Assembly (NCBI GenBank): GCA_947494145.1
Contig: CANLTZ010000001.1
Span: forward strand, 124,001 to 188,000
Direction of reading: 5' to 3'
Source of the DNA: an uncultured Jannaschia sp.
Lineage (GTDB): Bacteria > Pseudomonadota > Alphaproteobacteria > Rhodobacterales > Rhodobacteraceae
Length of the DNA stretch: 64,000 bases
The notes beneath the pieces were generated by a model. It did no database searches and was not told the origin of the DNA. It saw nothing but the letters and a program-made list of their open reading frames with translations. Numbering within the stretch: position 1 is the stretch's first letter; each line of letters starts with the position of its first letter. The translations under genes were made by a program, and so were the position numbers. Of the stretch, positions 7,896 to 31,769 are shown one piece after another.

Positions 7896-7932
7896 CATGG
7901 CGGGGCTGAAGCCCTTTGATTCCATGCCTGAG
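7896..7932 (-). repeat. REP-like repeat, degenerate copy 1
   Basis: On the minus strand this stretch reads GGCATGGAATCAAAGGGCTT followed by CAGCCCCGCCATG. It matches the minus-strand reading of 22011-22050 (GGCATGGCATCAAGGGGCTT) and resembles 38779-38819. It lies between the GH36 and permease genes. Its own stem is weak, so it is probably a decayed copy. Confidence 0.5.
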
Positions 7933-7969
7933 CGGCGTAGGCCGTTGGATTGGTCGAGGGGCAGCATTC

Positions 7970-9500: not shown

Positions 9501-9502
9501 CG

Positions 9503-10725: not shown

Positions 10726-10804
10726 CGCCCTGGAGCCTGGGTCAGACGTGGCAGCGTTATCTGGGCTCGCACCTTGCAAGCAGTCCGGCGGCGGCGTCCT
10801 GCGA

Positions 10805-11062: not shown

Positions 11063-11149
11063 CGCGGTCGATGCTCACATTGATCCTCGGTCATCCAGTG
11101 GCATGTCCGAACTTTGTGTTCGTATCATGACCGTGCGAAATCAGGTGCC

Positions 11150-11173
11150 GGGGGGCGAGGCATCCCGCCCCCC
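11150..11173 (-). terminator. GC stem-loop behind the sugar-binding protein gene
   Basis: GGGGGGCG and CGCCCCCC form a perfect 8-bp stem with an 8-nt loop, about 10 nt past the binding-protein stop. There is no T-run on the minus strand. A role as a partial terminator or 3' RNA stabiliser, giving more binding protein than permease, is common in such operons and is inferred here. Confidence 0.6.
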
Positions 11174-11183
11174 ACATGTCTTG

Positions 11184-12434
11184 TCAGTTGGCGTAAATAC
11201 GTTGGCGGGCCTGTTCCAGACGCTGAAGGATGTCGTCTAGATTGTCAGGGAAGACCATGAATTCCTGTAGGCCTTCCATGCCAACGGACGCCATTTCAGC
11301 CGGAAAGTCGCGGTCGAAGAACTGCGCGACACCGCCGGTGGCATTCTCCGACAGCATCGTGAAGCCTTGCTCCAGGAATTCATCGGCATCCACGGACGAG
11401 CCCGCATTCACCGGAAGTTGGCCCAGCTTGGCGCCCGAATTGATGTCGGTCTGGACATCCGCCGAGGTGACGAATTTCAGGAATTCGCGCGCGGCATCCT
11501 TGTTTTCGGCGCCTGCGGGAATGTGGAACGTATCGGTGGGCGCGTCTTCGCCCATTTCCACATCGGGGTTGATGACCGGGAACTGATAGAAGTCGATCTG
11601 ATCGTCGCTCAGACCTGCCTCGCGCATAGGGGCCACGGCAAAGTTGCCCATGAGGTAGGCGGCAGCTTCACCATTGACCATGAAGGGCAGCGCTTCCTGC
11701 CAGGAATAGTTCTGATGGTCTTCGATGTAGCCGCCCATGTCGATGAGCTGGCGCCAATTGGCGAAGGTCTGGCGCACGCGGTCATCCGTCCAGGGGACTT
11801 CGCCGCGGGCCAGTTCCATGTGGAAGTCGAAGCCGTTGGTGCGCATGTTCAGGTAATCGAACCAGCCGCCCGCCGTCCAAAGGAACTTGGACCCGATGGT
11901 ATAGCAGGCGCGGCCTGAATCGACGATGACCTGGCAATTGGCCAGTTCTTCTTCCCAGGTGGTGGGCTCTTCCAGCCCCAACTCATTGAAGATGTCTTCG
12001 CGGTAATAGACGCCCCACTGATAATAGGTATAAGGCACGCCCCATTGCTTGTCGTCGAGGGTCAGCGCGCCCTTGACGGCGTCGAGCCCTTCCAGATCGC
12101 CCCAGATGTCGGAGACGTCCTCAAAAAGGCCTGCATTGACGAAGGGCGTCATGCGGTTGGCGGCGTACCAGTTGACCACGTCCGGGGGGTTGGCACTCAG
12201 CACGTTGCGGATCTGGCTTTTCCAAGCTTCGCGGTCGACGATTTCCAACTCGACCGTCAGGTCGGGATGCAGGGCGTCGAAATCGGCGGCCAGCTGTTCC
12301 ATCACTGCGCGCGGGGCAGGGTTGGACATGTCCGACACGATCTTGAGCGTGCCCGTCAGATTGGCATGGCCATCCGCAAAGGCGGCGCCGGTCAACGCGG
12401 TCGTGGCAGCAAGGGCCGTGAGAATGGATCGCAT
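11184..12434 (-). CDS. Sugar ABC transporter substrate-binding protein
   Basis: A 416-residue periplasmic binding protein of the CUT1 (family 1 extracellular solute-binding) type. The signal peptide is MRSILTALAATTALTGAAFA with cleavage near residue 20. The mature part starts with the typical LKIVSDMSNPAPRAVME, and contains NPPDVVNWYAANRMTPFV and MVNGEAAAYLMGNFAV. Start ATG 12434 follows a good GGGAGG site; a longer frame to 12473 would bury the signal peptide. It is the first gene of the galactoside operon, immediately behind the palindromic operator at 12460-12491. Confidence 0.92.
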   Translation of the reverse strand: MRSILTALAATTALTGAAFADGHANLTGTLKIVSDMSNPAPRAVMEQLAADFDALHPDLTVELEIVDREAWKSQIRNVLSANPPDVVNWYAANRMTPFVNAGLFEDVSDIWGDLEGLDAVKGALTLDDKQWGVPYTYYQWGVYYREDIFNELGLEEPTTWEEELANCQVIVDSGRACYTIGSKFLWTAGGWFDYLNMRTNGFDFHMELARGEVPWTDDRVRQTFANWRQLIDMGGYIEDHQNYSWQEALPFMVNGEAAAYLMGNFAVAPMREAGLSDDQIDFYQFPVINPDVEMGEDAPTDTFHIPAGAENKDAAREFLKFVTSADVQTDINSGAKLGQLPVNAGSSVDADEFLEQGFTMLSENATGGVAQFFDRDFPAEMASVGMEGLQEFMVFPDNLDDILQRLEQARQRIYAN

Positions 12435-12459
12435 GAATACCTCCCAGTGTGCGTCCAGG

Positions 12460-12491
12460 GAAACCAGTTCCATTTTTCGGAACTTGGTTTC
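12460..12491. promoter_or_regulatory. Palindromic operator between the galactoside operon and the IclR gene
   Basis: GAAACCAGTTCC and GGAACTTGGTTTC form an inverted repeat around ATTTTTC, perfect apart from one inserted T. It lies 26 bp before the binding-protein start on one side and 19 bp before the upstream IclR start on the other. This is the expected spot for IclR autoregulation and control of the catabolic operon. Confidence 0.75.
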
Positions 12492-12509
12492 TTATGTTGA
12501 AAACTGACC

Positions 12510-13354
12510 ATGAGTCAGCCTAGGCTGTCAACCAGTATCGCGGCGGGGAGGGCCGGAGTGAACGTGCAGCCAACCAAGTCCGACGGCACTGTAGGCAAGG
12601 CCCTCGACGTGCTTGATCAGGTGGCAAGCCATGGGCGCCCGGTGCGGTTCAGTGAGCTTCTGGAAAGCTCCCCCTTCCCGAAGGCCACGCTGTATCGCTT
12701 GCTGCAAACGCTGACCAGTCAGGGGATGCTGGCGCTGGATCCGGACCGCGGGACCTATGCGCCCGGCATGCGGCTGGTGCGGATGGCCCATGCGGCCTGG
12801 GCGCAGTCGTCGCTGGCCCCCATCGCGCGCGATCATCTGGACGCGCTGAGCCGGGCAGTGGGTGAAACGGTGCATCTCGCACAGTTGGATGGGGGCCATG
12901 TGCTTTATGTGGATAAACGCAACGCCACGCGGCCCGTCCCGATGTATTCCGAAGCGGGCAAGGTCGGGCCCGCCTATTGCACCGGTGTTGGCAAGGCCAT
13001 GCTTGCTTTCCTGCCCGAGCCGCAGCTTGCCGCAGCACTGACCCAGCAAAGCTGGCACCGCTTTACCGACACGACGCTGACGGATGCCGCTGCCATGCGT
13101 GCCGAGCTGTCCGAGATACGGGAAATGGGCCACGCCTTCGACCGCGAAGAACATGAGCCGGGCATCCATTGCATCGCCATGCCGATCCTGTCGCCTGGCG
13201 GGCGCGTGCAGGGTGCCGTCTCGGTCACATCGGCAACGGATTGCGGCGATCCGGCCGCCCTGGAACGCCACCTGCCGGCCTTGCGCCAGGCGGTGGAACG
13301 CATTGCTGGGGACCTGCGCGACTGGCGCTTCCCCGACCAGACGGAGGAACAGGT

Positions 13355-13382
<28 letters not shown>
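12510..13382 (+). CDS. IclR-family transcriptional regulator of the galactoside locus
   Basis: A 290-residue IclR regulator. It has an N-terminal winged helix (VGKALDVLDQVASHG to ATLYRLLQTL) and a C-terminal effector domain with YCTGVGKAMLAF and the end segment CIAMPILSPGGRVQGAVSV. The effector is probably galactose or a pathway acid; that is inferred from location. ATG 12510 abuts the operator and lacks a ribosome site. GTG 12558 has GGGGAG 7 nt upstream and would remove only 16 unstructured residues, so it may be the true start. The 3' end overlaps the ATPase gene by 28 nt. Confidence 0.9.
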
Positions 13383-14410
<1,028 letters not shown>

Positions 14411-14892: not shown

Positions 14893-15471
14893 TTGGGGGG
14901 AGTTTTGGCCATCGTGCGCGGGCTGAGCGCGCTCAACGCCGCCGTTCTCGCTGCGGGGCGCGCCATGGGGATTTTCTGCATGGCGCTCATGGTGATTTTC
15001 ATTTTGGTTCAGGTTTTCTGGCGCTACGTGCTATCGAACCCCTTGCCCTGGCCCGAGGAAGCGGCGCGTTTTCTGATGCTGTGGCTCATGGTGGTGGCGC
15101 CCACGGCGCTAAGACGCGGGGGCTTCGTGGCCATCGACATGATCCAGCTTGCCCTGCCGCGCGTGGCGGGGGGCGTGCTGACGCTGATTTTGCTGGGTCT
15201 GTCGCTTCTGGTGCTGGTCGTGGCCGTGTCCATTGGGTGGAGCGAGGTCACGGGTTTTTCGGGGCGGTTTACCACCTCATCCCTCTATTACCCGACCACC
15301 GACGGGTGGGAGAAGATGCCCCGCTCCTGGATGATGGCCTCGCTTCTGGTGGGGTGCATCATGATGGTGTCGGTGACCGTCGAGTTGATCCTGCGCCAAA
15401 TCGCCGTGCTGGGCGGGCTGGCGGATCAATTGCCGGTCATCCCGCACACCGAAACGGTGGGGGCGGAATAG
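14893..15471 (+). CDS. dctQ: TRAP transporter small membrane subunit (DctQ type)
   Basis: A 192-residue protein with four hydrophobic helices typical of TRAP small permeases: FCMALMVIFILVQVFWRYVL, RFLMLWLMVVAPTALRRG and two later ones. The family segment WPEEAARFLMLWL is present. The start is TTG at 14893 with a GGGGAGGGG stretch just upstream; later TTG and GTG codons at 14905 and 14914 are alternatives. The stop is directly followed by the dctM start. It forms an Na+-dependent acid or sugar-acid importer with the next two genes. Confidence 0.88.
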   Translation: MGGVLAIVRGLSALNAAVLAAGRAMGIFCMALMVIFILVQVFWRYVLSNPLPWPEEAARFLMLWLMVVAPTALRRGGFVAIDMIQLALPRVAGGVLTLILLGLSLLVLVVAVSIGWSEVTGFSGRFTTSSLYYPTTDGWEKMPRSWMMASLLVGCIMMVSVTVELILRQIAVLGGLADQLPVIPHTETVGAE

Positions 15472-16764
15472 ATGCTGGTCTGGTTCCTTCCGCTTTTTCT
15501 GCTGTTCCTGATGATCGGCCTGCCGGTCTTCTTCGCGCTGCTGGCCGCGCCTGGTCTGATGCTGTGGCTGAACGGGCAGGGCAGCGATCTCGTACTGCTT
15601 TATCGCAATACGTATAACGGGATGGATAGCTTCCCGCTGATGGCTATCCCGTTCTTCATGCTGGCAGGTGAGATGATGAACCGGGGCGGCATCACGCTGC
15701 GGCTGGTGGAATTCGCCCAGGCGCTAGTGGGGCACTTCCGGGCAGGCTTGGCGCAGGTGAACATTCTGTCGTCGATGTTGTTTGCGGGGCTATCTGGGTC
15801 GGCGGTGGCCGATACCTCGGCGCTCGGCTCCATGCTGATCCCGGCCATGGAGAAGGAAGGCTATACCCGCAAATTCGCCGCCGCCGTGACAGCCGCCTCC
15901 AGCGTCATTGGGCCCATCATCCCGCCCTCGGGCATCATGATCATATATGCCTACGTCATGGAACAATCGGTGGCCGCGCTTTTCCTGGCGGGCATCGTGC
16001 CGGGGGCCCTTGTCGGGATCGGGCTGATGGTGGTCACGAACATCATCGCGCGCCGCAACCCCGATGCCATGCCCGCGCTCAAGACCCGGGCGACCTGGCC
16101 CGAAAAGGGGCGCGCGTCGCTGAAGGCCTTTTTCCCACTGTTGACGCCCGTCATCATCCTGGGCGGCATCCTGGGCGGGGCGTTCACCCCGACCGAGGCC
16201 TCCGCCGTGGCAGTAGGTTACGCCGTCATCGTGTCGCTTTTCATCCTGCGCGAGATGTCGTGGCGTGACTTGCCCGATGTGCTGGGCAAGTCGGCGTTGA
16301 TTTCTTCGGTCGTGCTGCTGCTTGTTGGCGCGGCCTTGGCCTTCAAGACGGTGGTCGCGCTGAGCCATGCGCCCGAGGCGCTGGCGGCGCTGATCCTATC
16401 GCTGTCGGACAACCCGTTGATCCTGCTTTTGCTGATCAACCTGCTGCTGTTCATCGTGGGGATGTTTCTGGATGCGGGCCCGGCCATCATCATCCTGGGG
16501 CCGATCCTGGGGCCGATTTTCGTATCTCTGGGCGTGGACCCGGTGCATTTTGCCATTATCATGTCTGTCAACTTGACCGTGGGGTTGGCGACGCCGCCCA
16601 TGGGGCTTGTCTTATTCGTTGCCTCATCGGTCAGTGGTGAACGGGTGGAAACCATCGCCCGCGCCATCCTGCCCTTCCTGGCCATCCATGTCTTCGTAAT
16701 CGGGTTGATTACCTACATTCCCGCCATTTCGCTGGCGGTGCCGCGCTTCTTCGGATTTCTATGA
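15472..16764 (+). CDS. dctM: TRAP transporter large membrane subunit (DctM type)
   Basis: A 430-residue polytopic membrane protein of the DctM family and usual length. Recognisable segments are FPLMAIPFFMLAGEMM, GLSGSAVADTSALGSM, IIPPSGIMIIYA and GLATPPMGLVLFV. It forms the transport channel of the tripartite system. It follows dctQ with no gap, and the binding-protein start lies 29 nt past its stop. Confidence 0.94.
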   Translation: MLVWFLPLFLLFLMIGLPVFFALLAAPGLMLWLNGQGSDLVLLYRNTYNGMDSFPLMAIPFFMLAGEMMNRGGITLRLVEFAQALVGHFRAGLAQVNILSSMLFAGLSGSAVADTSALGSMLIPAMEKEGYTRKFAAAVTAASSVIGPIIPPSGIMIIYAYVMEQSVAALFLAGIVPGALVGIGLMVVTNIIARRNPDAMPALKTRATWPEKGRASLKAFFPLLTPVIILGGILGGAFTPTEASAVAVGYAVIVSLFILREMSWRDLPDVLGKSALISSVVLLLVGAALAFKTVVALSHAPEALAALILSLSDNPLILLLLINLLLFIVGMFLDAGPAIIILGPILGPIFVSLGVDPVHFAIIMSVNLTVGLATPPMGLVLFVASSVSGERVETIARAILPFLAIHVFVIGLITYIPAISLAVPRFFGFL

Positions 16765-16793
16765 ACCAAGGTCGAATAATAGGGAGAGAGACC

Positions 16794-17849
16794 ATGAAAC
16801 TTCTGACCACCCTGGGGGCCGCTGCGCTGGCAGCCGTTCTGGCGGTGCCAGCCATGGCGCAGGATTTCACCATCCGCGCCACGGCGAATTCAAACGAGAA
16901 CGACGAAGACTATGACGGCCTGGTCGTCTTCAAGAATTACGTTGAGGCCGCTTCGAATGGCGCCATCGCCGTGGAATTATTCATCGGTACGCAGCTTTGC
17001 TCGAACGGGGCGGAGTGTTTGCAGGGTGTGGCCGACGGGTCCATCGACGTCTTCGTGACCACGTCGGGTGGGGCGGCGGGCATCTTCCCTTACGTGCAGA
17101 TTTTCGACCTGCCCTACCTGATGGCCGATGACCGGATCGCCGAGGAAGTGCTGACCAACACCGCTTTGGTGTCGCAGATGCGGGCCAAGGCGTTGGAGGA
17201 TTCGGGCGACTCGATCCGCATCATGACCGTTGGCAACACGGGCGGCTGGCGCAACTTCGCCAACACGCAGCGCCGCGTGGCCGAGCCTTCGGATATGGAG
17301 GGCCTGAAGATCCGCACCGTGGTCGCAGACCTGCCGCAGGAATTGGTGCGCACGCTGGGTGCCGCGCCCACGCCCATCCCGTGGCCGGAACTGTTCACCT
17401 CGCTCCAGACAGGTGTCGTGGAAGGGTCCAAGAACGGGATCACCGACATCATGGGCATGAAGTTCCCCGATGCCGGGCTGCAATACCTGACGCTGGACGG
17501 GCATGCCTACATGGCGGCCATCTGGGTGATGAACAACCAGAAGTTCCAAGAGATGCCCGATGACATGAAGCGCGTCGTGGTGGACGGCTTCGCGGCCTTG
17601 CAGCAGGCGACGTTCGCGTCGCCCAAGCGCAAATCCATCCAGGCCTATGAGGATTTCGTGGCTGGCGGCGGGGATCTGTATGTGCCCACGCCCGAGCAGA
17701 AGGCGGCGTTCCAGGAAGCGGCGGCGCCGGTCTATGATTGGTTCGCGTCCAACGTGGATGGCGGTGAAGAGATGCTGGCCAACCTGCGCGCAGCCGTGGC
17801 TGAGGCGGAAGAGAACGTGAATGCCCGCCGGGCGCGCGATCTCGAATAA
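16794..17849 (+). CDS. dctP: TRAP transporter periplasmic substrate-binding protein (DctP type)
   Basis: A 351-residue periplasmic receptor with signal peptide MKLLTTLGAAALAAVLAVPAMA. The region LKIRTVVADLPQELVRTLGA carries the conserved Arg used to bind substrate carboxylates, and VEGSKNGITDIM follows. ATG 16794 has AGGGAGAGAG upstream; an in-frame start at 16761 overlaps dctM and would hide the signal peptide. The substrate is unknown. It could be an organic acid, or a sugar acid feeding the nearby carbohydrate loci. The gene ends at a good terminator. Confidence 0.92.
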   Translation: MKLLTTLGAAALAAVLAVPAMAQDFTIRATANSNENDEDYDGLVVFKNYVEAASNGAIAVELFIGTQLCSNGAECLQGVADGSIDVFVTTSGGAAGIFPYVQIFDLPYLMADDRIAEEVLTNTALVSQMRAKALEDSGDSIRIMTVGNTGGWRNFANTQRRVAEPSDMEGLKIRTVVADLPQELVRTLGAAPTPIPWPELFTSLQTGVVEGSKNGITDIMGMKFPDAGLQYLTLDGHAYMAAIWVMNNQKFQEMPDDMKRVVVDGFAALQQATFASPKRKSIQAYEDFVAGGGDLYVPTPEQKAAFQEAAAPVYDWFASNVDGGEEMLANLRAAVAEAEENVNARRARDLE

Positions 17850-22074: not shown

Positions 22075-22554
22075 TCATCGAAACGGATACATCCAGGCCT
22101 TGTAATCCTCCACCAACTCCAACGCGTGGGCGATCTGGTCGGGGGTCATCTTCTTGACCACTTCTTCCTGGGAAATCGCGGCATCGGGGTCACCGCCGAT
22201 GGCTGACAACACATACCACATATAGGCGCGCACCAAGTCCGGGGCGGGCATGCCCAGACCCACTTCGTAATACCACCCCACGCCCGATTGCGCGCCCGGA
22301 TGGCCCTTCATGGCGGAGCGCAAATACCATTCGAACGCGCGCACCTCGTCCTTTTCGACGCCAAGGCCCAAGGCGTACATCACGCCGATCAACTCCTCCG
22401 CGTCGGCATTGCCGGACCGGGCTGCGGGCCACAAAGCTTCACGGGCTTCCACGAAGCGCCCGGCCTCCATCAAATCGCGGGCATCTTCGATATCGGCGAA
22501 GGCGGGGCTGGACAGGGCCAACACAACGGACAAGATCGGGATATGAAGTTTCAA
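22075..22554 (-). CDS. Exported Sel1-repeat (tetratricopeptide-like) protein
   Basis: A 159-residue protein with signal peptide ending SSPAFA (about residue 20). Two to three Sel1-like repeats follow (AEELIGVMYALGLGVEKDEV, AQSGVGWYYEVGLGMPAPDL), suggesting a periplasmic protein-interaction role. The start is TTG at 22554 with a textbook AGGAGG 5 nt upstream. This start lies inside the first codons of the divergent peroxidase gene, so the two coding regions overlap by 12 nt at their 5' ends. Confidence 0.82.
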   Translation of the reverse strand: MKLHIPILSVVLALSSPAFADIEDARDLMEAGRFVEAREALWPAARSGNADAEELIGVMYALGLGVEKDEVRAFEWYLRSAMKGHPGAQSGVGWYYEVGLGMPAPDLVRAYMWYVLSAIGGDPDAAISQEEVVKKMTPDQIAHALELVEDYKAWMYPFR

Positions 22555-23838
22555 AGCATCCTCCTAGCGCTGACACTGGCTGCTGGCCCCGCCCATGCGC
22601 AAGGGGTCGAATTCCACCCGTTTGATGAGGCCAAGGCCGAAATCGGGCGATTGCTTTTTTACGACGCGATCCTGTCGGGGAACCAGAATATCTCCTGCGG
22701 GACGTGTCACCACCACAAGACCTTCACCGGCGACGGGCTATCGCTGGGCATCGGCGAAGGCGGGCAGGGTTTGGGGCCGGAGCGGACAGCAGGGGCGGGG
22801 GCGGACGCCATCCGCAAACGGGTGCCGCGCAACGCGCCCGCTTTGTGGAACCTGGGCGCGGTGGAATTCGAGCGACTGTTCCATGATGGCCGCGTCGGGT
22901 TTTCGGACGCCTATGGCAACGGCTATGACAGCCCGGCTGAGGAATGGCTGCCCGAGGGTCTGCCAAACCTCCTATCGGTGCAGGCTTTGTTTCCCATGAC
23001 GGCGCAGTTCGAAATGGCCGGCAATGTGGGGGAAAACGAAGTCACCGGCGCCGTCGGCGACCGCATCGACCTGGCCTGGCCCATCATCGCCAAACGGGTG
23101 CGGACGATTCCAGAATACGGCGACGCGTTCGTGGCCGCCTTTGACGATGTGGAGGCGCCCGAAGACGTCGACATCACTCATATCGCCATCGCCTTGGCCG
23201 ATTTCATCGGCTCGGAATGGCGGTCGTTGGATGCGCCCTATGATGCCTGGCTTGCGGGGACGTCCGACTTGACGGCAGCCCAGCATCGCGGGCGCGACCT
23301 GTTCTTTGGCCGCGCGAACTGTGCGTCGTGTCATTCGGGCGCTTTGTTCACTGACCACGAATTCCATGCCTTGGCCCTGCCGCCCTTCGGCCCCGGGCGC
23401 ACGCGCCGCTTCGACCCCGTGCCCCGCGATGTAGGACGCATGGCGGAAACCGATGATCTGGAAGATGCGTACCGATTCCGCACGCCGTCTTTGCGCAACG
23501 TCACGCTGACGGCCCCCTATGGCCACAATGGCGCCTATCCGACGCTGGAAGGCATCATCCGCCACCACGCTGACCCGCTTGCCGCGCTGGCCGCGTGGCA
23601 GCCCGAGATGGCTGAACTCCCCGAGGCGCCGTGGCTGGAGCCCATAGATTTCGTTATCCAATCAGACAGCCGCGAAATGGCGCGGGTGGCGGCGCGCCTC
23701 GATATCGCACCCGTGATGCTCAGCGATGCGGACATCGCCGATCTGGTGGCGTTTCTGGGCGCGTTGGAAGGCGGGGTCAGCAAGCATGGGCGCCTGGGCC
23801 GCCCCGACGCGGTGCCCAGCGGGTTGCCGGTGGATTGA
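22543..23838 (+). CDS. Di-haem cytochrome c peroxidase / MauG-family protein
   Basis: A 431-residue periplasmic protein with signal peptide MKFQSILLALTLAAGPAHA. It has two haem c sites, CGTCHH (about 52-56) and CASCH (about 259-263). The C-terminal RTPSLRNVTLTAPYGHNGAY segment is typical of the CCP/MauG family. It either reduces hydrogen peroxide with electrons from cytochrome c or modifies a protein partner. The start overlaps the divergent Sel1 gene, and the stop overlaps the kinase start (TGATG), coupling it to the carbohydrate operon that follows. Confidence 0.9.
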   Translation: MKFQSILLALTLAAGPAHAQGVEFHPFDEAKAEIGRLLFYDAILSGNQNISCGTCHHHKTFTGDGLSLGIGEGGQGLGPERTAGAGADAIRKRVPRNAPALWNLGAVEFERLFHDGRVGFSDAYGNGYDSPAEEWLPEGLPNLLSVQALFPMTAQFEMAGNVGENEVTGAVGDRIDLAWPIIAKRVRTIPEYGDAFVAAFDDVEAPEDVDITHIAIALADFIGSEWRSLDAPYDAWLAGTSDLTAAQHRGRDLFFGRANCASCHSGALFTDHEFHALALPPFGPGRTRRFDPVPRDVGRMAETDDLEDAYRFRTPSLRNVTLTAPYGHNGAYPTLEGIIRHHADPLAALAAWQPEMAELPEAPWLEPIDFVIQSDSREMARVAARLDIAPVMLSDADIADLVAFLGALEGGVSKHGRLGRPDAVPSGLPVD

Positions 23839-24680
23839 TGGCGCGCTTGCTGGTCTGCGGCATCGCCGTCATCGACTATGTCCACCGGATGGAGGCGCTG
23901 CCTTCGGGCGGGGTCAAGCACCGCTCCACCGCGTTCGACCGCATCGGGGGGGGATGCGCGGCCAATGCGGCGGTGGGGGCTGCGCGCTTGGGCGGTGACG
24001 TCACGCTCGTGTCGCGGCTGGGCCAAGACGCCGCGGGCGATGAGCTTGCCGCGATGCTGACCGCCCAGGGCCTGGCGCTGAACGTGCCGCGCGGGGGCCG
24101 CACGCCGCTCTCATCGGTCATGGTCGCCGCCGATGGCGAGCGGATGATCGTCAACTTCCCCGGCGCGGACTTACCCCAGACCCCGCCCGCCTTGCCCGAT
24201 TTCGACGCGGTGCTGTGCGACTGCCGCTGGCCCGAAGCGGCCGAGGCCGCCTTGCGCGCCGCCCGCGTCGCAGGCCGCCCCGGCGTGGTGGACGCCGAGA
24301 AGTTCACACCCTCGCAAATCGCGGCTCTGGCCTCTCACATCGTCTTCTCCGCCCCTGGCTTGCGCGACTTCGCGGGCATCGACGCGCTGCCTCGCGCCCT
24401 GTCCGATGCCGCCGCGCGCTTGCCGGGTGACGTGGCCTATACCGATGGCCCTGACGGCGTGACCTGGGCCAACGGCCTGCACGTGCCCGCTCCCGCGATC
24501 ACGCCTGTCGATACGCTGGGCGCGGGCGATCTGTGGCACGGCGCGTTCACCCTCGCGCTTGCCCGTGGGGAAGCACTGGACGCCGCCTCGCGCTTCGCCA
24601 ATGGTGCGGCCGCGATCAAATGCACGCGGCCTGGCGGGTGGGAGGCCTATCCCACGGCCCGCGATCTGGAGGATGCATGA
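23838..24680 (+). CDS. PfkB-family sugar kinase, YihV-like
   Basis: A 280-residue ribokinase-fold kinase. The N-terminal GGGCAANAAVGAARLGG glycine motif and the C-terminal DTLGAGDLWHGAF (catalytic Asp in GAGD) are intact. From memory of the E. coli sulfofructose kinase YihV, shared features are an MIVNFP-like segment, DCRW, FSAPGL and FANGAAAIKCTRPGG. That is suggestive but not proof. In its operon it would phosphorylate the ketose made by the FucI-like isomerase before aldol cleavage. Start ATG 23838 overlaps the upstream stop, and the stop overlaps the aldolase start (ATGA). Confidence 0.86.
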   Translation: MARLLVCGIAVIDYVHRMEALPSGGVKHRSTAFDRIGGGCAANAAVGAARLGGDVTLVSRLGQDAAGDELAAMLTAQGLALNVPRGGRTPLSSVMVAADGERMIVNFPGADLPQTPPALPDFDAVLCDCRWPEAAEAALRAARVAGRPGVVDAEKFTPSQIAALASHIVFSAPGLRDFAGIDALPRALSDAAARLPGDVAYTDGPDGVTWANGLHVPAPAITPVDTLGAGDLWHGAFTLALARGEALDAASRFANGAAAIKCTRPGGWEAYPTARDLEDA

Positions 24681-25711
24681 CCACGACCACCCTGACCCCC
24701 GGCAAACAGCTGGGGTTTCGCCGCATGTCCGACGGGGCCGGGCGCTTCAAGATGACCGCCGTGGACCAGCGCCCGCCGATCAAGGGCCCCATCGCCGCCC
24801 ACCATGGCGGCGATGCCCCCTGGGAAGACGTGGCTCGGGTGAAGACCCTTCTGCTGGAAGCCTTACAGCCATCCTCCACCGCCATGCTGCTGGACCCGCA
24901 TTACGCCATTCCCCATGGCTGGCAGGTCTTCGACCCGACCAAAGGTCTGATCGTCACGCTGGAGGATTCGCTTTTCCAAGACACCGGGCAGGGCCGCTAT
25001 TCGGCGGAAATCGATGACTGGTCCGTAGGCAAGATCAAACGGATGGGCGGCGACGCGGTCAAAGTGCTGGCGTGGTATCGGCCCGATATCTCGGATGCGG
25101 TGCGCACGGCCCAGCATGATTTGGTCAAGCGCACGGGCGAGGCCTGCGCGCGTTTCGACATCCCTTTCCTCTTCGAATTGCTGGTCCATCCCGTGGACAG
25201 CGATGCCGAACAGACATCCGAATATACCGAAATGGCCACGAAGCATTCCGACCACGTGCTTGCCTCGGTCGAAGCCTTTGCGGGCGCTGATTATGGCGTG
25301 GATGTCTTCAAGCTAGAAAGTCCGGTACCCGCGAAGGGAATCGCCCCCGGGTCAACCGATATCCAGGCCCTGTTCGACGAAATGGGCCGCTTGGCAGCGC
25401 GCCCTTGGGTCATGCTGTCGGCAGGCGCGGGCAAACCCGATTTCCGCACGGTGCTGGACTACGCCTATGCCGCAGGTGCCTCGGGGTATCTGGCGGGCCG
25501 TGCGATCTGGCTGGATGCGTTCACCGCCTACCCCGATTGGGACGCCATGGCGGTGGGCCTGCGCGACACATCGGTGCCTTACATGGCAGACTTGAACGCG
25601 CTGACCGATGCCAAGGCCACACCCTGGCACGCGCATGAGGTCTACGGCGGCAATGGCTTGGCCTTCGTGGAGCCGACGGCCGCGTTCCGCCAAAGCTATG
25701 GGGATATCTGA
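24677..25711 (+). CDS. LacD/YihT-type class I aldolase
   Basis: A 344-residue class I aldolase resembling tagatose-1,6-bisphosphate aldolase (LacD) and sulfofructose-1-phosphate aldolase (YihT). Visible family features are FKMTAVDQR near the N-terminus, a presumed Schiff-base Lys in DVFKLESPV, PWVMLSAGAG, and AGASGYLAGRAIW. It would split a ketose phosphate into dihydroxyacetone phosphate and an aldehyde. It is coupled to the kinase before it and the isomerase after it (TGATG). The exact substrate cannot be read from the sequence. Confidence 0.83.
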   Translation: MTTTTLTPGKQLGFRRMSDGAGRFKMTAVDQRPPIKGPIAAHHGGDAPWEDVARVKTLLLEALQPSSTAMLLDPHYAIPHGWQVFDPTKGLIVTLEDSLFQDTGQGRYSAEIDDWSVGKIKRMGGDAVKVLAWYRPDISDAVRTAQHDLVKRTGEACARFDIPFLFELLVHPVDSDAEQTSEYTEMATKHSDHVLASVEAFAGADYGVDVFKLESPVPAKGIAPGSTDIQALFDEMGRLAARPWVMLSAGAGKPDFRTVLDYAYAAGASGYLAGRAIWLDAFTAYPDWDAMAVGLRDTSVPYMADLNALTDAKATPWHAHEVYGGNGLAFVEPTAAFRQSYGDI

Positions 25712-27036
25712 TGAAGATCGGGATATTGCCGCTGGGTCGGCCCACCTTCGATTTGCCCTATGCGAAAGAAAAGCTGGCGGCGATGTTGGCGCAATTGGAT
25801 GTCAGCGGGCATGAAATCATCGGCTCGCGCAGCCTGCTGATGGGGCCAGACGATGCCGCCTTGGGCGCGGTGGCATCGGCGGACGTGCTGCTGATATTGC
25901 AGGTAACCTTCACCGACGCCGCCTTCACCACCCGCGCGGCCTGCGACTTCCCGGGTCGTGTGGCCATTTGGGCGGTGCCCGAACCGCGCCTGGGCGGGCG
26001 CCTTCGGCTCAACGCCTATTGCGGGCTCAACCTGCTCAGCCACGCGCTGGGCCTGAACGATCGCCGCTTCACCTGGGCCTATGGCGACAACGTCGACCTC
26101 GACGCCCTGCTTACTGGCCCCGAAGTCACGCCCAAGCGCGGCGTCCCCTCAGGCGCGGCCGCCATTGCCATACGCCGCGACCTCCATATCGCGCGCATCG
26201 GCGAGCGGCCCGAGGGTTTCGATACCTGCGCCTATGACAAGGCCGCGCTTGCGGGCCTGACCGGCGCCAAGGTCACCGAACTGACCTTGCCCGACCTGTT
26301 CGACCGCGCCCGCGCCCTGCCGGATGACGCGGTTGCTCCCTACGCCACCCAGGCCGAGACACTGGGCGGCGTGGCCGAGTTGGACCAAGGCGAACTCGAC
26401 CGCTCACTTCGCCTGGCAGGGGCCCTAGACCAACTCCGTCGTGAGCAGCGCTTCGACGCCATGGCTATTCGCTGCTGGCCCGAAACCTTCACCGAATATG
26501 GCGGCGCCGTCTGTGGCCCCGTCTCGATGCTGGGCGAGGCGCGCACCCCCTGCGCCTGCGAGGCCGATGTCTATGGCGCCGTGACCCAGGCCATTTTGCA
26601 AGACGTGGCCGACGCGCCGGTCTTTCTGGCGGATTTGGTGGATATGGACGACGAGACCGGCGTCGTCTGGCATTGCGGCCAGGCACCCGCATCGATGGCG
26701 GCCACCGCGCCCGGCGCTACGGTGCATACAAACCGCAAACAGGCGCTTCTGCTGGAATTCCCGCTCAAGCCCGGGCGCGTCACGCTCTTCCGTTTGAGCC
26801 AGGCCTACGGCCAGCCTCAGGCCGTCATCGCCACGGGCGAGGTGCTGGACCGACCCATGGCCTTCACCGGCACATCGGGTGTCGTGCGTTTTGATCGGGG
26901 CGCGACACAGGTCGGCGCCGATGTGATGGCCAGCGGGTTGGAGCACCACATGGCGCTGGCCTACGGCGACCACGCGGACATCTTGCGCGGCGTGGCCGCA
27001 GGCCTCGACATCCCCGTGCTGGAGCTTGGCGCATGA
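25711..27036 (+). CDS. L-fucose/L-arabinose isomerase-like protein
   Basis: A 441-residue protein with the FucI/AraA-type layout. It starts KIGILPLGRPTFDLPYAKEK and has a middle AIRCWPETFTEYGGAVCGP and a C-terminal beta-rich part with LKPGRVTLFRLSQ. Family members interconvert aldoses and ketoses with Mn2+. The central EYGGAVCGP and CACEADVYGAVTQAIL segments are the expected region for metal-binding acidic residues. Next to a kinase and an aldolase, it is likely to supply the ketose. Overlaps on both sides (TGATG, ATGA) place it firmly in the operon. Confidence 0.82.
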   Translation: MKIGILPLGRPTFDLPYAKEKLAAMLAQLDVSGHEIIGSRSLLMGPDDAALGAVASADVLLILQVTFTDAAFTTRAACDFPGRVAIWAVPEPRLGGRLRLNAYCGLNLLSHALGLNDRRFTWAYGDNVDLDALLTGPEVTPKRGVPSGAAAIAIRRDLHIARIGERPEGFDTCAYDKAALAGLTGAKVTELTLPDLFDRARALPDDAVAPYATQAETLGGVAELDQGELDRSLRLAGALDQLRREQRFDAMAIRCWPETFTEYGGAVCGPVSMLGEARTPCACEADVYGAVTQAILQDVADAPVFLADLVDMDDETGVVWHCGQAPASMAATAPGATVHTNRKQALLLEFPLKPGRVTLFRLSQAYGQPQAVIATGEVLDRPMAFTGTSGVVRFDRGATQVGADVMASGLEHHMALAYGDHADILRGVAAGLDIPVLELGA

Positions 27037-28127
27037 TCCGCTACGGCCTGATCGGCGCTGGCATGATGGGGCAGGAGCATATCCGCAACATCAACCTGCT
27101 CGCCGATGCCCGCGTCACCGCCGTGGCCGACCCCGATGCACGTATGCGCGAGCTGAGCCTCGCTACGGCGGAAAGCGCCAAGGGCTATCTGTCGGTCGAC
27201 GACCTGGTGGGCGAGGATGCCTGCGACATCTATCTGATCGCCGCGCCCAACGACCTGCATGCAGGGCTGCTGCAACAGCTTATGGCGACGGACAAACCCA
27301 TCCTGGTGGAAAAGCCGCTCGCCACGACGTCGGCGGCCTGCCGCGACCTGCTGAACATGGCCAAGGGGCGCAAGGCGCCCATCTGGGTCGCCATGGAATA
27401 CCGCTACATGCCGCCCATCCAGCGGCTTTTGCAGGCGATTGACCAGGGCGCCACGGGCGATCCGCGGATGGTGTCGATCCGCGAACACCGCTTTCCTTTT
27501 TTGCCTAAAGTGGACGATTGGAACCGCTTCAACGCCCGCACCGGCGGCACGCTGGTCGAAAAATGCTGCCACTTCTGGGACTTGATGCGGCTGATCCTGA
27601 AATCGGACCCTGTGCGCGTCTATGCCAGCGCGGGCGTGGATGTGAACCACCGGGATGAACGCTATGCGGGCGGCATACCCGATATCGTAGATAATGCCTA
27701 TGTCATCGTCGATTTCGCCAATGGGACCAGGGGTATGCTGGATCTGTGCATGTTTGCCGAAGGTTCCCACTGGCAGGAATTCGTGGCGGTGACGGGCCCC
27801 AAGGCACGCTGCGATGCGCTCATCCCGGGGCCCGCGCGCTTCGCACCCGATGGCGCCCCGCGGGAGGCTGAGTTCGTCACCTCCATCCGCGCGCTCAAAC
27901 AGGAAGTCCGCGAAATCGTCCACACCCCGCCCGAATTGCTTCTGGCGGGCGACCACCACGGTTCCACCTTCTACCAACACAAGCGCTTCCTCGACTTGGT
28001 CCGGGCGGGCAAGGGCACGCCCGAAGTCACGCTTGAAGACGGCTATTGGTCCGTTCTGGTGGGCGAAGCCGCCGAAGAATCCGCCCGCTCCGGCCAGGCG
28101 ATTTCGCTTGTGGGAAGGGGTCCCTGA
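27033..28127 (+). CDS. Gfo/Idh/MocA-family NAD-binding protein
   Basis: A 364-residue two-domain protein. The N-terminal Rossmann fold has GLIGAGMMGQEH, and the family EKP motif is in ILVEKPLA. The C-terminal domain carries GGTLVEKCCHFWDLMRLI with the conserved His. Members are sugar dehydrogenases, but some are NAD-dependent glycoside hydrolases (GH109, and the GH188 sulfoquinovosidases). Given the kinase, aldolase and isomerase alongside, a glycosidase role releasing the free sugar is a real option and would explain why no other glycosidase is in this operon. Confidence 0.85.
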   Translation: MIRYGLIGAGMMGQEHIRNINLLADARVTAVADPDARMRELSLATAESAKGYLSVDDLVGEDACDIYLIAAPNDLHAGLLQQLMATDKPILVEKPLATTSAACRDLLNMAKGRKAPIWVAMEYRYMPPIQRLLQAIDQGATGDPRMVSIREHRFPFLPKVDDWNRFNARTGGTLVEKCCHFWDLMRLILKSDPVRVYASAGVDVNHRDERYAGGIPDIVDNAYVIVDFANGTRGMLDLCMFAEGSHWQEFVAVTGPKARCDALIPGPARFAPDGAPREAEFVTSIRALKQEVREIVHTPPELLLAGDHHGSTFYQHKRFLDLVRAGKGTPEVTLEDGYWSVLVGEAAEESARSGQAISLVGRGP

Positions 28128-28130
28128 TGG

Positions 28131-28152
28131 CTTCTTCCTGGCATAAATATCC
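28131..28152 (+). repeat. Dispersed gene-end element, copy E (diverged)
   Basis: CTTCTTCCTGGCATAAATAT followed by CC lies 4 nt past the stop of the Gfo/Idh gene, in the same orientation to its gene as copies A, B and F. It differs from them at several positions and has no adjoining hairpin. Confidence 0.55.
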
Positions 28153-28209
28153 AATGGCGCAACATGGCGGCAGGCTCGACCGGTGGGCTCTGACCGGAAA
28201 GGTGGCCCC

Positions 28210-29112
28210 ATGATCCTGATCACCGAATTCATGGATGAAACCTGGGTCGATTGGCTGCGCGCGCGCGCCGACCTCACCTACGAGCCTGACCTGCCCGATC
28301 GCCCCGACGACCTGGCACGCCTGGCATCGGGCGCGCAGGCCCTCATCGTGCGCAATCGCACGCAGGTGCGCGGCGCGCTGCTCGGCGCGGGCTTTGGCTG
28401 CGTGGGGCGGCTGGGCGTGGGCCTCGACAATATCGACCTGGACGGCTGCCGCGACAGAGGCATTGCCGTCTATCCGGCCACGGGGGCCAACACCTTGTCA
28501 GTGGCAGAATACGTGATCACGACGGCGGCGCTTCTGCTGCGCGGCGCCTATCTCATGCGCCACGAGATGGAAGCGGGTGCCTGGCCCCGCGGCCCTGCGG
28601 GCCAGGGGCGAGAGATCGCGGGCAAGGTGCTGGGCCTGATCGGCTACGGAGAAATCGCGCGCAAAAGCGCAGCGCTGGGCCGGGCGCTCGGGATGGAGGT
28701 CATGGCCGCCGACCCCTATGCCACGGATTTCGACGGCGCGCGGCCTGCCAGTGTCGAAGAGGTCTTCGCCCAGGCCGATATCCTTTCGCTCCACGTGCCC
28801 CTGACCGATGAGACGCGGCGCATGGTCGATGCTGCGGCCTTGGCGCGGATGAAACCCGGCTCGGTCCTGGTGAACGCGGCGCGGGGCGGCGTGGTGGATG
28901 AGGCCGCGCTGGCGACCGCCCTGCAATCGGGGCATCTGGGGGGCGCCGCGCTCGATACGTTCGAGGCGGAGCCCTTGGGCACCGACCATGTCTTCGCCGG
29001 CGTGCCCAACTTGATTTTGACGCCTCATATCGGCGGCGTGACCGCCGAAGCCAATGCCCGCGTCTCCGAGATGACGGCCCGCAGCGTGGCGCGTCATCTG
29101 GGGTTGACATGA
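28210..29112 (+). CDS. D-2-hydroxyacid dehydrogenase (3-phosphoglycerate dehydrogenase-like)
   Basis: A 300-residue NAD-dependent dehydrogenase. The Rossmann turn is GLIGYGEIAR, the substrate Arg is in NAARGGVVDEAAL, the Glu is in FEAEPL and the catalytic His is in LTPHIGG. It starts at ATG 28210 behind AAAGGTGG; an in-frame ATG at 28183 has no site. It would oxidise or reduce a 2-hydroxy/2-oxo acid. In this operon the acid may be a product of the aldehyde formed by the aldolase, but no substrate can be assigned. Confidence 0.88.
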   Translation: MILITEFMDETWVDWLRARADLTYEPDLPDRPDDLARLASGAQALIVRNRTQVRGALLGAGFGCVGRLGVGLDNIDLDGCRDRGIAVYPATGANTLSVAEYVITTAALLLRGAYLMRHEMEAGAWPRGPAGQGREIAGKVLGLIGYGEIARKSAALGRALGMEVMAADPYATDFDGARPASVEEVFAQADILSLHVPLTDETRRMVDAAALARMKPGSVLVNAARGGVVDEAALATALQSGHLGGAALDTFEAEPLGTDHVFAGVPNLILTPHIGGVTAEANARVSEMTARSVARHLGLT

Positions 29113-29173
29113 AGCGGGGGGCGCAGACGTCGCGGCAGCGTGGGCGCGTCGGGGTGCAGGCTTTTTTGGACAG

Positions 29174-29245
29174 CGATGCGCTTGCATCGTCTGGGGACGC
29201 CACGAGTCGAGAGGTCCTGAGGGGGCAATCTGCCCCTCAGGACCT
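29174..29245 (+). repeat. Two successive hairpins between dehydrogenase and mutarotase genes
   Basis: CGATGC-GCTT-GCATCG (29174-29189) is followed by a perfect 13-bp stem, AGGTCCTGAGGGG with CCCCTCAGGACCT (29212-29245, 8-nt loop). No T-run follows. They lie in the only long gap (235 bp) of the carbohydrate operon and could be a processing site, an attenuator or a terminator that separates two transcripts. Confidence 0.6.
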
Positions 29246-29347
29246 GTTCCAGCGTGCTGTCGCCCGAACCCGCCTCAAGGACAAGCGCGGCGAAGCCGCG
29301 TCGGCTGCGCCGATCCTTGACCCGGGCCCGGGCGACGGGGGGTGCCC

Positions 29348-30307
29348 ATGAGCGGGCTGCGGGATTGGTGGATCGAAGGGCACGGGCTGCGCGCGCGGTT
29401 CACCGATTGGGGGGCCGCCCTGATGGATTTGCGGTTGGACGGCCATGACGCGCCTTTGGTGTTGGGCTTTGACGACCCGAACCTCTATCCTGATCATTCG
29501 CGCTATTTCGGCGCCACAGCGGGGCGGTTTGCCAACCGGATCGGCGACGCGCGTTTCGCGTTGGACGGCGTAACATACCAGACGGATACGAATTTTCTGG
29601 GGCGCCATACCCTCCATGGGGGCAGCAAAGGGACGGGCAAGCGCGAATGGGAGATGCTGGACCATGAGGTCGATGCAATCCGCTTCGGGGTCCGCCTGGC
29701 CGATGGGGAGATGGGGTTTCCCGGTGCCATGCGGCTCGAGGCGCTATTTACCTGCGCGCCAGGTGCTTGCCTTCGCATCGACTACCGCGCCACTTGCGAC
29801 GCGCCCACGATCTGCAACCTGGCCCACCACAGCTATTGGTGCCTTGATGATACGGGCGATCTGGCACGCCACACCCTGAAGGTGGCGGCGGATCGCTATA
29901 CGCCCGTGGACGACGGCATGATCCCCACCGGCGTGGCCCCTGTGGATGGGACGCGCTTCGATTTCCGTGGCGGGCGGGCCTTGCCCGGTGAAGGGTTGCT
30001 GGATCACAATCTGTGCCTGTCCGATGCCCGCGTGGCGTTGCGCCCTGTGGGCGTGTTACTTTCTGACGCGAGCGGTGTGCAGATGGCGATCGCCACGACC
30101 GAGCCCGGCTTGCAGGTCTATGACGGCGCGAAGCTGGACGTGCACGCACCCGGCCTAGGCGGGCGGCGCTACGGCGCCCATGCGGGCGTCGCGCTGGAGC
30201 CGCAGATCTGGCCAGATGCGCCGAACCATGCCGATTTCCCCGACGCCACCTTGCGCCCGGGTGAGACTTACAGACAGACGACGACCTTCACCTTTTCGAA
30301 AGGATAG
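29348..30307 (+). CDS. Aldose 1-epimerase (mutarotase) family protein
   Basis: A 319-residue galactose-mutarotase-like beta-sandwich. Substrate-binding segments are AGRFANRI and HGGSKG. The catalytic His is in LAHHSYWCL and the catalytic Glu in VALEPQIWPDAPN. It interconverts alpha and beta anomers of a free sugar, which fits an operon that begins with sugar release and isomerisation. ATG 29348 follows GGGGGGT; the in-frame GTG two codons earlier is an alternative. The aldehyde dehydrogenase gene starts 4 nt after its stop. Confidence 0.88.
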   Translation: MSGLRDWWIEGHGLRARFTDWGAALMDLRLDGHDAPLVLGFDDPNLYPDHSRYFGATAGRFANRIGDARFALDGVTYQTDTNFLGRHTLHGGSKGTGKREWEMLDHEVDAIRFGVRLADGEMGFPGAMRLEALFTCAPGACLRIDYRATCDAPTICNLAHHSYWCLDDTGDLARHTLKVAADRYTPVDDGMIPTGVAPVDGTRFDFRGGRALPGEGLLDHNLCLSDARVALRPVGVLLSDASGVQMAIATTEPGLQVYDGAKLDVHAPGLGGRRYGAHAGVALEPQIWPDAPNHADFPDATLRPGETYRQTTTFTFSKG

Positions 30308-30311
30308 ACCG

Positions 30312-31769
30312 ATGCTCGACGGAACCGGCTTCAAGACCTGGATGCGGCAGGCCAACCTGATTGACGGCCAATGGGTGGGCGCTGATGGCGAGGCCACTAT
30401 CGACGTGAACAATCCGGCCACGGGCGATGTGATCGGCACGATCCCCAAATCCGGCCGGGCCGAGACCGAGCGCGCCATCGCCGCAGCTTCGGCGGCCTTT
30501 CCTGCTTTTCGCGACATGGCGCTGATGGAGCGCTGCAATCTGCTGTGGAAGCTGCACGATGCGCTGATGGACAACCAGGCCGATCTGGCCGAGTTGCTGA
30601 CCGTCGAGATGGGCAAGCCCCTGGCCGAGGCCAAGGGCGAGATCGCCATCGGCGCGCAATATGTCCGCTGGTTTGCCGAAGAAGCACGGCGCGCCAAGGG
30701 CGAAATCGTGCCCGCCGGTGTGAATGGCCGTCGCATTCTGGTGACGAAACACGCCGTTGGTGTGGTGGGCATGATCACGCCCTGGAATTTCCCTTCAAGT
30801 ATGCTGGCCCGCAAGATCGCGCCTGCCTTGGCGGCGGGTTGCACGGTGGTGGCCAAGCCCGCGACGATGACACCCTATTCCGGCCTGGCCTGGGGCGCGC
30901 TGGCCGAAGAGGTGGGCTATCCGAAGGGGGTTGTGAACATCCTGACCGGCTCAGCCCGGGACATCGCTGGCGCGATGATGGATGCGTTCGAGGTGCGGAA
31001 GGTGACGTTCACCGGCTCAACCGAGGTGGGCAAGGAGTTGATCCGCCAATCGGCGGATACGGTGAAGAAAGTGTCCATGGAACTGGGCGGCAACGCGCCC
31101 TTTGTGGTGTTCGACGATGCCGATCTGGAGCAGGCCGTGGAAGGCGCCATGGTGTCGAAATTCCGCAATGCGGGCCAGACCTGTGTCTGCGCCAATCGCA
31201 TTTATGTGCAGGCAGGGATCCACGACGCCTTCGTCAAGCGGCTGGTGGAGAAGACTGAAGCCATGAAGGTGGGCGACGGGCGCGAAGACGGGGTTGAGCA
31301 GGGCCCGATGATCGACATGGATGCCGTCGAGAAGGTTGAGGACTTCGTGGCCGACGCGAAGGACCAGGGCGGCGAAGTCGTGACCGGGGGCGCGCGGCAT
31401 GAGAAGGGTGGCACGTTTTTCCAGCCGACCGTGGTGACGGGTGCCACCCAGGCGATGAAATTCGCGACCGAGGAGATCTTTGGCCCCCTGGCCCCCGTCT
31501 TCAAATTCGAGACCGAGGAAGAGGCCATCGAGATGGCCAATGCCACGGTCTATGGGCTGGCCTGCTATGCCTATACGTCCGATCTGGGCCGGGCGTTTCG
31601 GCTGAATGAAGGGCTGCAATATGGGATGATCGGGATCAATTCGGGGCTGATCACCACCGTTGAGGCGCCCTTTGGAGGTGTGAAGGAAAGCGGCCTTGGC
31701 AAAGAGGGCGGGTCCCAGGGGTTGGAGGATTACCTGGAGACGAAATACGTCTGTATCGACGGAATTTGA
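30312..31769 (+). CDS. NAD(P)-dependent aldehyde dehydrogenase, succinate-semialdehyde dehydrogenase-like
   Basis: A 485-residue aldehyde dehydrogenase of the GabD branch. The catalytic Asn is in ITPWNFPSS, the general-base Glu in SMELGGNAP and the nucleophile Cys in AGQTCVCANR. The C-terminal EAPFGGVKESGLGKEGG is typical of SSADH. GabD-like enzymes also oxidise sulfolactaldehyde and other C3-C4 aldehydes. Here it probably oxidises the aldehyde made by the LacD-type aldolase. It is the last gene of the operon and is convergent with ogt. Confidence 0.9.
   Translation: MLDGTGFKTWMRQANLIDGQWVGADGEATIDVNNPATGDVIGTIPKSGRAETERAIAAASAAFPAFRDMALMERCNLLWKLHDALMDNQADLAELLTVEMGKPLAEAKGEIAIGAQYVRWFAEEARRAKGEIVPAGVNGRRILVTKHAVGVVGMITPWNFPSSMLARKIAPALAAGCTVVAKPATMTPYSGLAWGALAEEVGYPKGVVNILTGSARDIAGAMMDAFEVRKVTFTGSTEVGKELIRQSADTVKKVSMELGGNAPFVVFDDADLEQAVEGAMVSKFRNAGQTCVCANRIYVQAGIHDAFVKRLVEKTEAMKVGDGREDGVEQGPMIDMDAVEKVEDFVADAKDQGGEVVTGGARHEKGGTFFQPTVVTGATQAMKFATEEIFGPLAPVFKFETEEEAIEMANATVYGLACYAYTSDLGRAFRLNEGLQYGMIGINSGLITTVEAPFGGVKESGLGKEGGSQGLEDYLETKYVCIDGI

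Follow-up and report, generated by a model that had tools for sequence, protein, structure and literature searches.

Sulfoquinovose (SQ) is a sulfur sugar found in the membranes of plants and algae. It is described as ranking among the most abundant organosulfur compounds (PMC12890257; all papers cited here by PMC number are drawn on in extract, and what is credited to them refers to those extracts). Use of SQ in the Roseobacter group has been tied mainly to the sulfoquinovose monooxygenase (sulfo-SMO) route (PMC13372026, PMC10755693). Hybrid clusters of the sulfo-Embden–Meyerhof–Parnas (sulfo-EMP) type are mentioned for Proteobacteria (PMC10599462, PMC12890257), and a Jannaschia faecimaris protein of glycoside hydrolase family GH188 stands among the representative clusters in the legend to Figure 5c of Kaur et al. 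2023 (PMC10755693). Here, we describe an operon in a 64,000-nucleotide stretch of DNA from an uncultured Jannaschia sp. (hereafter the window, to which all coordinates refer) that very probably degrades SQ and its glycosides by a hybrid sulfo-EMP-type pathway. An earlier annotation of the same DNA (the original prediction) had placed a sulfo-EMP-type SQ operon at 23838–31769, and this core claim is supported by sequence, by the predicted folds of the aldolase and isomerase, by active-site residues and by gene neighbourhood.

Seven open reading frames (ORFs) follow one another on the forward strand between 23838 and 31769, in the order given earlier. Each junction among the kinase, aldolase, isomerase and Gfo/Idh genes is an overlap of 1–4 nt, as had been noted, and the other three genes come after them, with gaps of about 80, about 230 and 4 nt upstream of the 2-hydroxyacid dehydrogenase, the mutarotase and the GabD-like gene, respectively. 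Their Pfam families are, in order, PfkB, DeoC/LacD, Fucose_iso_C, GFO_IDH_MocA, 2-Hacid_dh, Aldose_epim and Aldedh; the Pfam scan of the core neighbourhood covered ten window proteins. Isomerase, sulfofructose (SF) kinase and sulfofructose-1-phosphate (SFP) aldolase gene types, which together define a sulfo-EMP set in the broad sense, thus stand side by side and overlap. The seven genes are as follows.

23838..24680, + strand: predicted PfkB-family sulfofructose kinase of the YihV type (PDB match, identity, residues)
24677..25711, + strand: predicted class I sulfofructose-1-phosphate aldolase, LacD-like
25711..27036, + strand: predicted sulfoquinovose-sulfofructose isomerase of FucI/AraA fold, a distant SftI relative
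27033..28127, + strand: predicted NAD-dependent sulfoquinovosidase of the GH188 (SqgA) family (PDB matches, sulfonate loop)
28210..29112, + strand: D-2-hydroxyacid dehydrogenase, probable sulfolactate dehydrogenase with an SlcC-like role (2-Hacid_dh, neighbourhood)
29348..30307, + strand: galactose-mutarotase-like aldose 1-epimerase (PF01263)
30312..31769, + strand: GabD-like aldehyde dehydrogenase, probable sulfolactaldehyde dehydrogenase (PDB match)

For comparison, we took loci from named genomes, those around the best 80 of 198 confirmed relatives of the isomerase; some of these loci end at contig ends. The nearest named genomes are those of Jannaschia species, with isomerases at most 84% identical.

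The kinase ranks YihV (7ag6, E 5e-50) first in the PDB, followed by 2rbc, named 'Sugar kinase' (1e-37), and by ribokinase (1e-20). It is 39% identical to E. coli YihV, 27% to RbsK and 28% to PfkB, and its match to LacC is not significant; YihV is thus nearer to it than ribokinase, LacC or PfkB, and a LacC (tagatose) reading of this enzyme was rejected. We take Lys27, Asn109 and Arg138 of YihV to be its sulfonate-contact positions, roles that reportedly go back to Sharma et al. in 2021. The window kinase has Lys, Asn and Arg there; the Lys and Arg recur in all 71 relatives with a usable kinase and the Asn in 55, and the corresponding residues are T/I/E in RbsK, K/V/S in PfkB and K/L/R in a Cereibacter kinase. 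A tree for which we chose LacC and PfkB as outgroup unites the window kinase with 16 of 17 relatives (97/98) and leaves out L083. This tree has long branches and 16 of 30 inner forks open, and it does not fix YihV beside the window group; it also omits own6, the copy of the window kinase in its own genome, and its own2 row is a wrong frame. Grouping of the kinase with enzymes for tagatose, inositol or fucose, named beforehand as an outcome that would speak against SQ, was not seen, and the YihV-like kinase of the original prediction is borne out by the best PDB match, the 39% identity and the retained K/N/R residues.

The closest solved relative of the aldolase is 8tnf (46% identity), titled sulfohexulose-1-phosphate aldolase and sourced from 'Paracoccus onubensis strain Merri'; the word 'sulfohexulose' was not met among the literature matches listed. 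The protein belongs to PF01791, and its predicted class I aldolase fold agrees with a role in SQ breakdown. It is 28% identical to YihT and 28–33% to LacD, and the YihT rows of the aldolase tree separate from it at 100/100. The LacD-fold, YihT-like aldolase expected earlier is thus class I and LacD-like, but its low identity to YihT and the split in the tree rule out YihT orthology. LacD is a cousin of the window enzyme, nearer than YihT yet farther than 8tnf. Degradation of a non-sulfonated sugar (tagatose, fucose, or one of inositol or acidic type) by the operon as a whole would be in keeping with the NCBIfam result for the aldolase, which lies above the cut-off of the 'tagatose 1,6-diphosphate aldolase' subfamily (309.6 vs 184), and with the predicted fold of the isomerase, which is that of arabinose and fucose isomerases. 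We nevertheless regard this as very improbable: YihV is the best match of the kinase and LacC not a significant one, the sulfonate residues are kept, GH188 occurs in the same stretch at 73 of the 80 loci, and 20 of the 80 also hold homologues of sulfopyruvate decarboxylase or SuyB.

The Gfo/Idh protein matches 8zn9 (E 7e-117; molecule name 'Oxidoreductase, putative'), 8qc3 (9e-105, over residues 2–361) and 8qc2 (8e-104), the latter two being GH188 NAD-dependent sulfoquinovosidases; inositol dehydrogenase, the next PDB family, follows at 8e-24. In GH188, a sulfonate triad of Arg166, Leu170 (through its backbone) and Lys172 and the catalytic-site residues Glu189 and His193 have been described (PMC10755693, PMC11465081). 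Alignment to 8qc3 reveals that the segments EHRFPFLPK at 151 and VEKCCH at 175 are kept in the window protein, with equivalents of all five residues present. Of the 73 relatives in which GH188 was matched, 68 have the sulfonate loop R-F-P-F-L-x-K; five lack it, one of which is incomplete. The variable site of the family is Leu in the window protein, which is therefore not a Tyr variant. The similarity to 8qc3 and 8qc2 and the kept loop agree with the earlier identification of a Gfo/Idh-fold NAD-dependent sulfoquinovosidase. The tie then drawn between such enzymes and sulfo-EMP2 does not hold, as GH188 is reported beside sulfo-EMP, Entner–Doudoroff (ED), sulfofructose transaldolase (SFT), SMO and sulfoquinovose dioxygenase (SDO) clusters (PMC10755693).

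These residues also bear on whether the operon serves another sulfo-hexose, for example sulfofucose (6-deoxy-6-sulfo-galactose) by way of sulfotagatose, or both sugars. The nearest solved aldolase comes from Merri, and Paracoccus wurundjeri Merri, of the same strain name, was isolated on sulfofucose (PMC12421959); the aldolase of that strain may be 8tnf itself, to judge from the name. For the kinase/aldolase pair of this strain, an EMP-like route from sulfofucose was weighed by the authors (PMC12421959), and the window mutarotase is of the galactose type. According to the same extract, however, growth on sulfofucose did not increase the pair, and the route in use in that strain is of the ED type. 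The only GH188 enzyme treated at length in the extract of PMC10755693, where sulfofucosides are not mentioned, cut SQ glycosides but not nitrophenyl glucosides or the glucuronide, and the Glu that contacts the C4 hydroxyl (PMC10755693) is kept in the window protein. We consider sulfofucose, alone or with SQ, an unlikely substrate of the operon and SQ the much better supported one.

The isomerase is of the FucI type (PF02952), and its sole NCBIfam match is SftI, an SQ isomerase. The predicted structure matches the AraA/FucI fold. A PDB sequence search returned two chance-level rows only, and sequence-profile comparison with E. coli FucI, made to place its Mn-binding residues, gave a probability of 0.4% and no usable alignment, despite the matching folds. 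An isomerase of the YihS type (PF07221) was not found in the genome to which the window belongs, a weak result given that the control was silent in E. coli too. We class the window enzyme, on similarity, as a distant SftI relative and do not file it as SftI. Family assignments make the gene set a hybrid, with an EMP2-type isomerase and an EMP-type kinase. The original prediction had brought up sulfo-EMP2, a pathway that uses SqiK (PF00365) and SqiA (PF01116) (PMC9594981). That label was rejected: the kinase is PF00294 and the aldolase PF01791, and neither the SqiK nor the SqiA family occurs among the ten window proteins scanned.

Of the remaining three proteins, the GabD-like one is a close relative of succinate-semialdehyde dehydrogenase (SSADH), with E. 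coli SSADH (3jz4, E 1e-170) as best PDB match; the alignment contains Cys-x-Cys and an Arg pair, the two arginines that have been proposed to bind the sulfonate (PMC10599462). The nearest relatives of the 2-hydroxyacid dehydrogenase are phosphoglycerate dehydrogenases. Homologues of sulfopyruvate decarboxylase occur in 13 of the related loci and of SuyB in seven others. All 20 of these loci contain the 2-hydroxyacid dehydrogenase, compared with 31 of the remaining 60 (Fisher 3e-5, kinship uncorrected). Because of this co-occurrence, the enzyme probably makes sulfopyruvate from sulfolactate, gene neighbourhood being the best evidence, and the earlier suggestion that it acts on sulfolactate gains in probability. 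The decarboxylase at locus L033 passes the cut-off in its beta subunit (231.1 vs 221.5) and falls just below it in alpha (144.0 vs 147.95). For the mutarotase, the best NCBIfam fit is to GalM models, below their cut-offs; YihR orthology finds no support.

In order to establish how constant this set is, we counted its genes in the related loci. At 63 of the 80, a single fetched stretch holds the kinase, the aldolase, the isomerase and GH188; singly, the kinase occurs in 73, the aldolase in 71, GH188 in 73, the 2-hydroxyacid dehydrogenase in 51, the mutarotase in 48, the GabD-like gene in 45 and a DeoR-type regulator in 46. A second sample comprised 295 genomes of the window's family, evenly drawn and including its own. 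The isomerase (E 1e-30) was found in 25, all of which also have a GH188 homologue (E 1e-60), and the two genes are adjacent in 21 of them (coordinates read by eye); among the 270 genomes lacking the isomerase, 120 have a GH188 homologue (Fisher p 6e-9, kinship uncorrected). The association of the genes thus exceeds chance in both samples (63 of 80 loci; 25 of 25 vs 120 of 270 family genomes).

Several observations weigh against the assignment to SQ. The isomerase reaches 243.9 bits, far from the equivalog cut-off of 700 (NF048012, SftI), and together with the MauG-like gene considered below it is the weakest point of the assignment. Of 71 relatives, 16 have Ala or Ser at the position of YihV Asn109, and K/N/R recurs in a Shinella kinase whose cluster is of another kind; because of both, the triad is not specific to this operon. 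The two arginines of the GabD-like protein do not discriminate either, being common to E. coli SSADH, and the mutarotase is 17.5% identical to E. coli YihR. GH188 is missing from seven of the 80 loci (two on short contigs), and sulfofucose may be a second substrate. In the own genome, no sulfopyruvate decarboxylase reached the cut-off (best 32.8 vs 221.5 bits, in a search that 2 of 14 controls pass). Finally, nine of the 80 loci have no nearby aldolase; for six of them the whole genome was searched, with no match in four and nothing but weak or short matches in two. These six genomes (L016, L018, L027, L039, L054, L066) keep the isomerase without a full-length aldolase orthologue, and L054 and L066 hold aldolase pieces of about 40 residues at 50–53% identity, or weak matches. 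Such genomes could indicate that SQ is degraded with the dedicated aldolase dispensable and another aldolase cutting sulfofructose-1-phosphate. The window aldolase is intact, though, and overlaps both of its neighbours, and 71 of the 80 loci have the gene, which leaves this only a slim chance. Loci without aldolase or GH188 may be decaying clusters, or other enzymes may be in use there.

From the gene content, family matches, residues and synteny described above, we infer the reactions, the uptake and the order of flow of an SQ pathway. SQ or SQ-glycerol would be imported by a TRAP (tripartite ATP-independent periplasmic) transporter, introduced below. The GH188 enzyme would use NAD as a catalytic cofactor in cleaving SQ glycosides, and the mutarotase would interconvert the anomers. 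The FucI/AraA-fold isomerase would convert SQ to sulfofructose, the YihV-type kinase would phosphorylate this to sulfofructose-1-phosphate, and the LacD-like class I aldolase would split the latter into dihydroxyacetone phosphate and (S)-sulfolactaldehyde. Oxidation of (S)-sulfolactaldehyde by the GabD-like enzyme would yield sulfolactate, from which the 2-hydroxyacid dehydrogenase would form sulfopyruvate.

A possible continuation lies elsewhere in the same genome, on contig G000:C18 (L111 5700–11430). This region holds a HisD-family gene scoring over the hisD cut-off, which we take to be HpsN, a short-chain dehydrogenase/reductase (SDR) gene, a gene that we presume to be SuyB (NCBIfam gives only a distant galactarate dehydratase, 133 vs 731) and a ComC-like gene whose best NCBIfam match is L-sulfolactate dehydrogenase (187.8 bits vs a cut-off of 500). 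Two further ORFs, one resembling zinc alcohol dehydrogenases and a short one resembling SuyA, were recognized by eye. The region is a probable cluster for dihydroxypropanesulfonate (DHPS) and sulfolactate. Its ComC-like and SuyAB-like products could take sulfopyruvate through (R)-sulfolactate to pyruvate and sulfite, an exit that is the likelier one in this genome because nothing in it attained the sulfopyruvate decarboxylase cut-off. An Xsc gene is also present, at C4 (952 bits vs a cut-off of 676).

The extent of the operon given earlier holds for the seven genes but is too small, having missed a MauG-like gene and three TRAP genes at 14893–17849.

22543..23838, + strand: MauG/CCP-like di-haem protein, first gene of the core operon (PF03150, two CxxCH motifs)
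14893..15471, + strand: TRAP small permease DctQ (Pfam DctQ)
15472..16764, + strand: TRAP large permease DctM (Pfam DctM; TIGR00786, 424.6 bits vs a cut-off of 268.45)
16761..17849, + strand: TRAP solute-binding protein DctP (Pfam DctP)

The MauG-like gene overlaps the kinase gene by 1 nt, and its product has a signal-peptide-like start (by eye). A homologue occurs in 61 of the 80 related loci, with two CxxCH motifs in 57 and none in four. Both genes were found at 56 loci, 53 of them measurable, and in 47 of these 53 the MauG-like gene ends within 14 nt of the kinase start, for which reason it looks to be part of the operon. DctM homologues occur in 65 of the 80 loci and DctP homologues in 66 (median identity 81%). 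Other genes stand between the TRAP genes and the core in the window; in 39 relatives, no more than 800 nt lie between the end of DctP and the MauG-like match downstream of it, and the transporter belongs to the same cluster there. By similarity and position, uptake of the sulfonate sugar is its probable role. Searches confined to open-licence papers brought up no description of an association of TRAP or MauG-like genes with SQ; the match for TRAP concerned taurine respiration, and those for MauG were unrelated by title. It is conceivable, if rather doubtful, that Rhodobacterales and their relatives have a recurrent hybrid sulfo-EMP of their own, combining their own isomerase clade, an 8tnf-type aldolase, GH188, an SlcC-like step and TRAP uptake, in which the exported di-haem MauG-like enzyme catalyses a so far overlooked redox reaction in the periplasm, one that the use of sulfoquinovosides requires.

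Farther upstream, at 5740–14410, the window contains a GH36 alpha-galactosidase, ATP-binding cassette (ABC) permeases, a binding protein, an IclR regulator and an ABC ATPase, probably a separate galactoside locus.

Related genes were also met on plasmids. Zymomonas mobilis pZZM402 (L115, 128–11361) bears a class II aldolase, an epimerase, a related isomerase (38%), a GH188-like Gfo/Idh protein with the sulfonate loop EHRFPFLKK, a major facilitator superfamily (MFS) transporter, a TonB receptor and an SSADH, and looks like another SQ set. On a Candidatus Chlorohelix plasmid (L116, 3425–17987), a related isomerase (36%) lies near a pyrophosphate (PPi)-type phosphofructokinase, an SSADH, a Gfo/Idh protein, a phosphoglycerate dehydrogenase and a nitrite/sulfite reductase. 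The Shinella plasmid (L125, 8084–14249) has a kinase/aldolase pair (40% and 48%), an SSADH, an SDR, a mandelate-racemase-type enzyme and a TSUP transporter, possibly another sulfosugar cluster. Plasmid pB of Cereibacter sphaeroides 2.4.1 (L128, 3570–7891) encodes an aldolase, which the tree places with YihT, a sugar kinase, an SSADH and a tartrate-dehydrogenase-type gene. Arthrobacter plasmid pYA7-1a has a GH188-like gene in an ED-like set with kinase and aldolase adjoining; none of the three YihV residues is kept in its kinase, and its GH188-like protein did not match the sulfonate-loop pattern.

The operon adds a sulfo-EMP-like, non-SMO set whose isomerase is carried by 25 of the 295 sampled family genomes, the own genome included. 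It also offers testable jobs for a TRAP transporter, for an aldolase that databases name after tagatose, and for a dehydrogenase resembling phosphoglycerate dehydrogenase.

Among the described systems, the yih sulfo-EMP pathway of E. coli follows the same logic, with a YihV-type kinase (39%), a class I aldolase fold and a mutarotase gene. It differs in its isomerase YihS, which is of another family (PF07221), and the window aldolase and mutarotase are only 28% and 17.5% identical to YihT and YihR; GH188 takes the place of YihQ, the GabD-like dehydrogenase that of YihU and the TRAP transporter that of YihO. Sulfo-EMP2 and the sulfo-transaldolase (sulfo-TAL) pathway (SqvD/SftI) share the FucI-type PF02952 isomerase, with SftI as the sole NCBIfam match. 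The SqiK and SqiA families of sulfo-EMP2 are not those of the window kinase and aldolase, the isomerase is far under the SftI cut-off, and the ten proteins scanned include no transaldolase such as sulfo-TAL has. Actinobacterial GH188 'Tyr variant' clusters, as presented in the extract of PMC11465081, likewise bring together an SF kinase, an SFP aldolase, a fucose isomerase and dehydrogenases of the phosphoglycerate and sulfolactaldehyde (SLA) types, but the window has Leu instead of Tyr, its SuyAB-like genes at another locus and TRAP instead of ABC transport. The P. wurundjeri Merri sulfofucose cluster shares the kinase/aldolase pair and the genes for sulfolactate mineralisation, and differs in its ED-type route and, as far as the extract goes, in having no isomerase in the cluster (PMC12421959). 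Closest of all is the locus of J. faecimaris (L014), a species listed in PMC10755693; there the seven genes recur in unchanged order, and the isomerase is 80% identical to that of the window. Because this GH188 cluster and hybrid sulfo-EMP clusters are already in print, the window operon adds one more case to a kind already reported and is not a new system.

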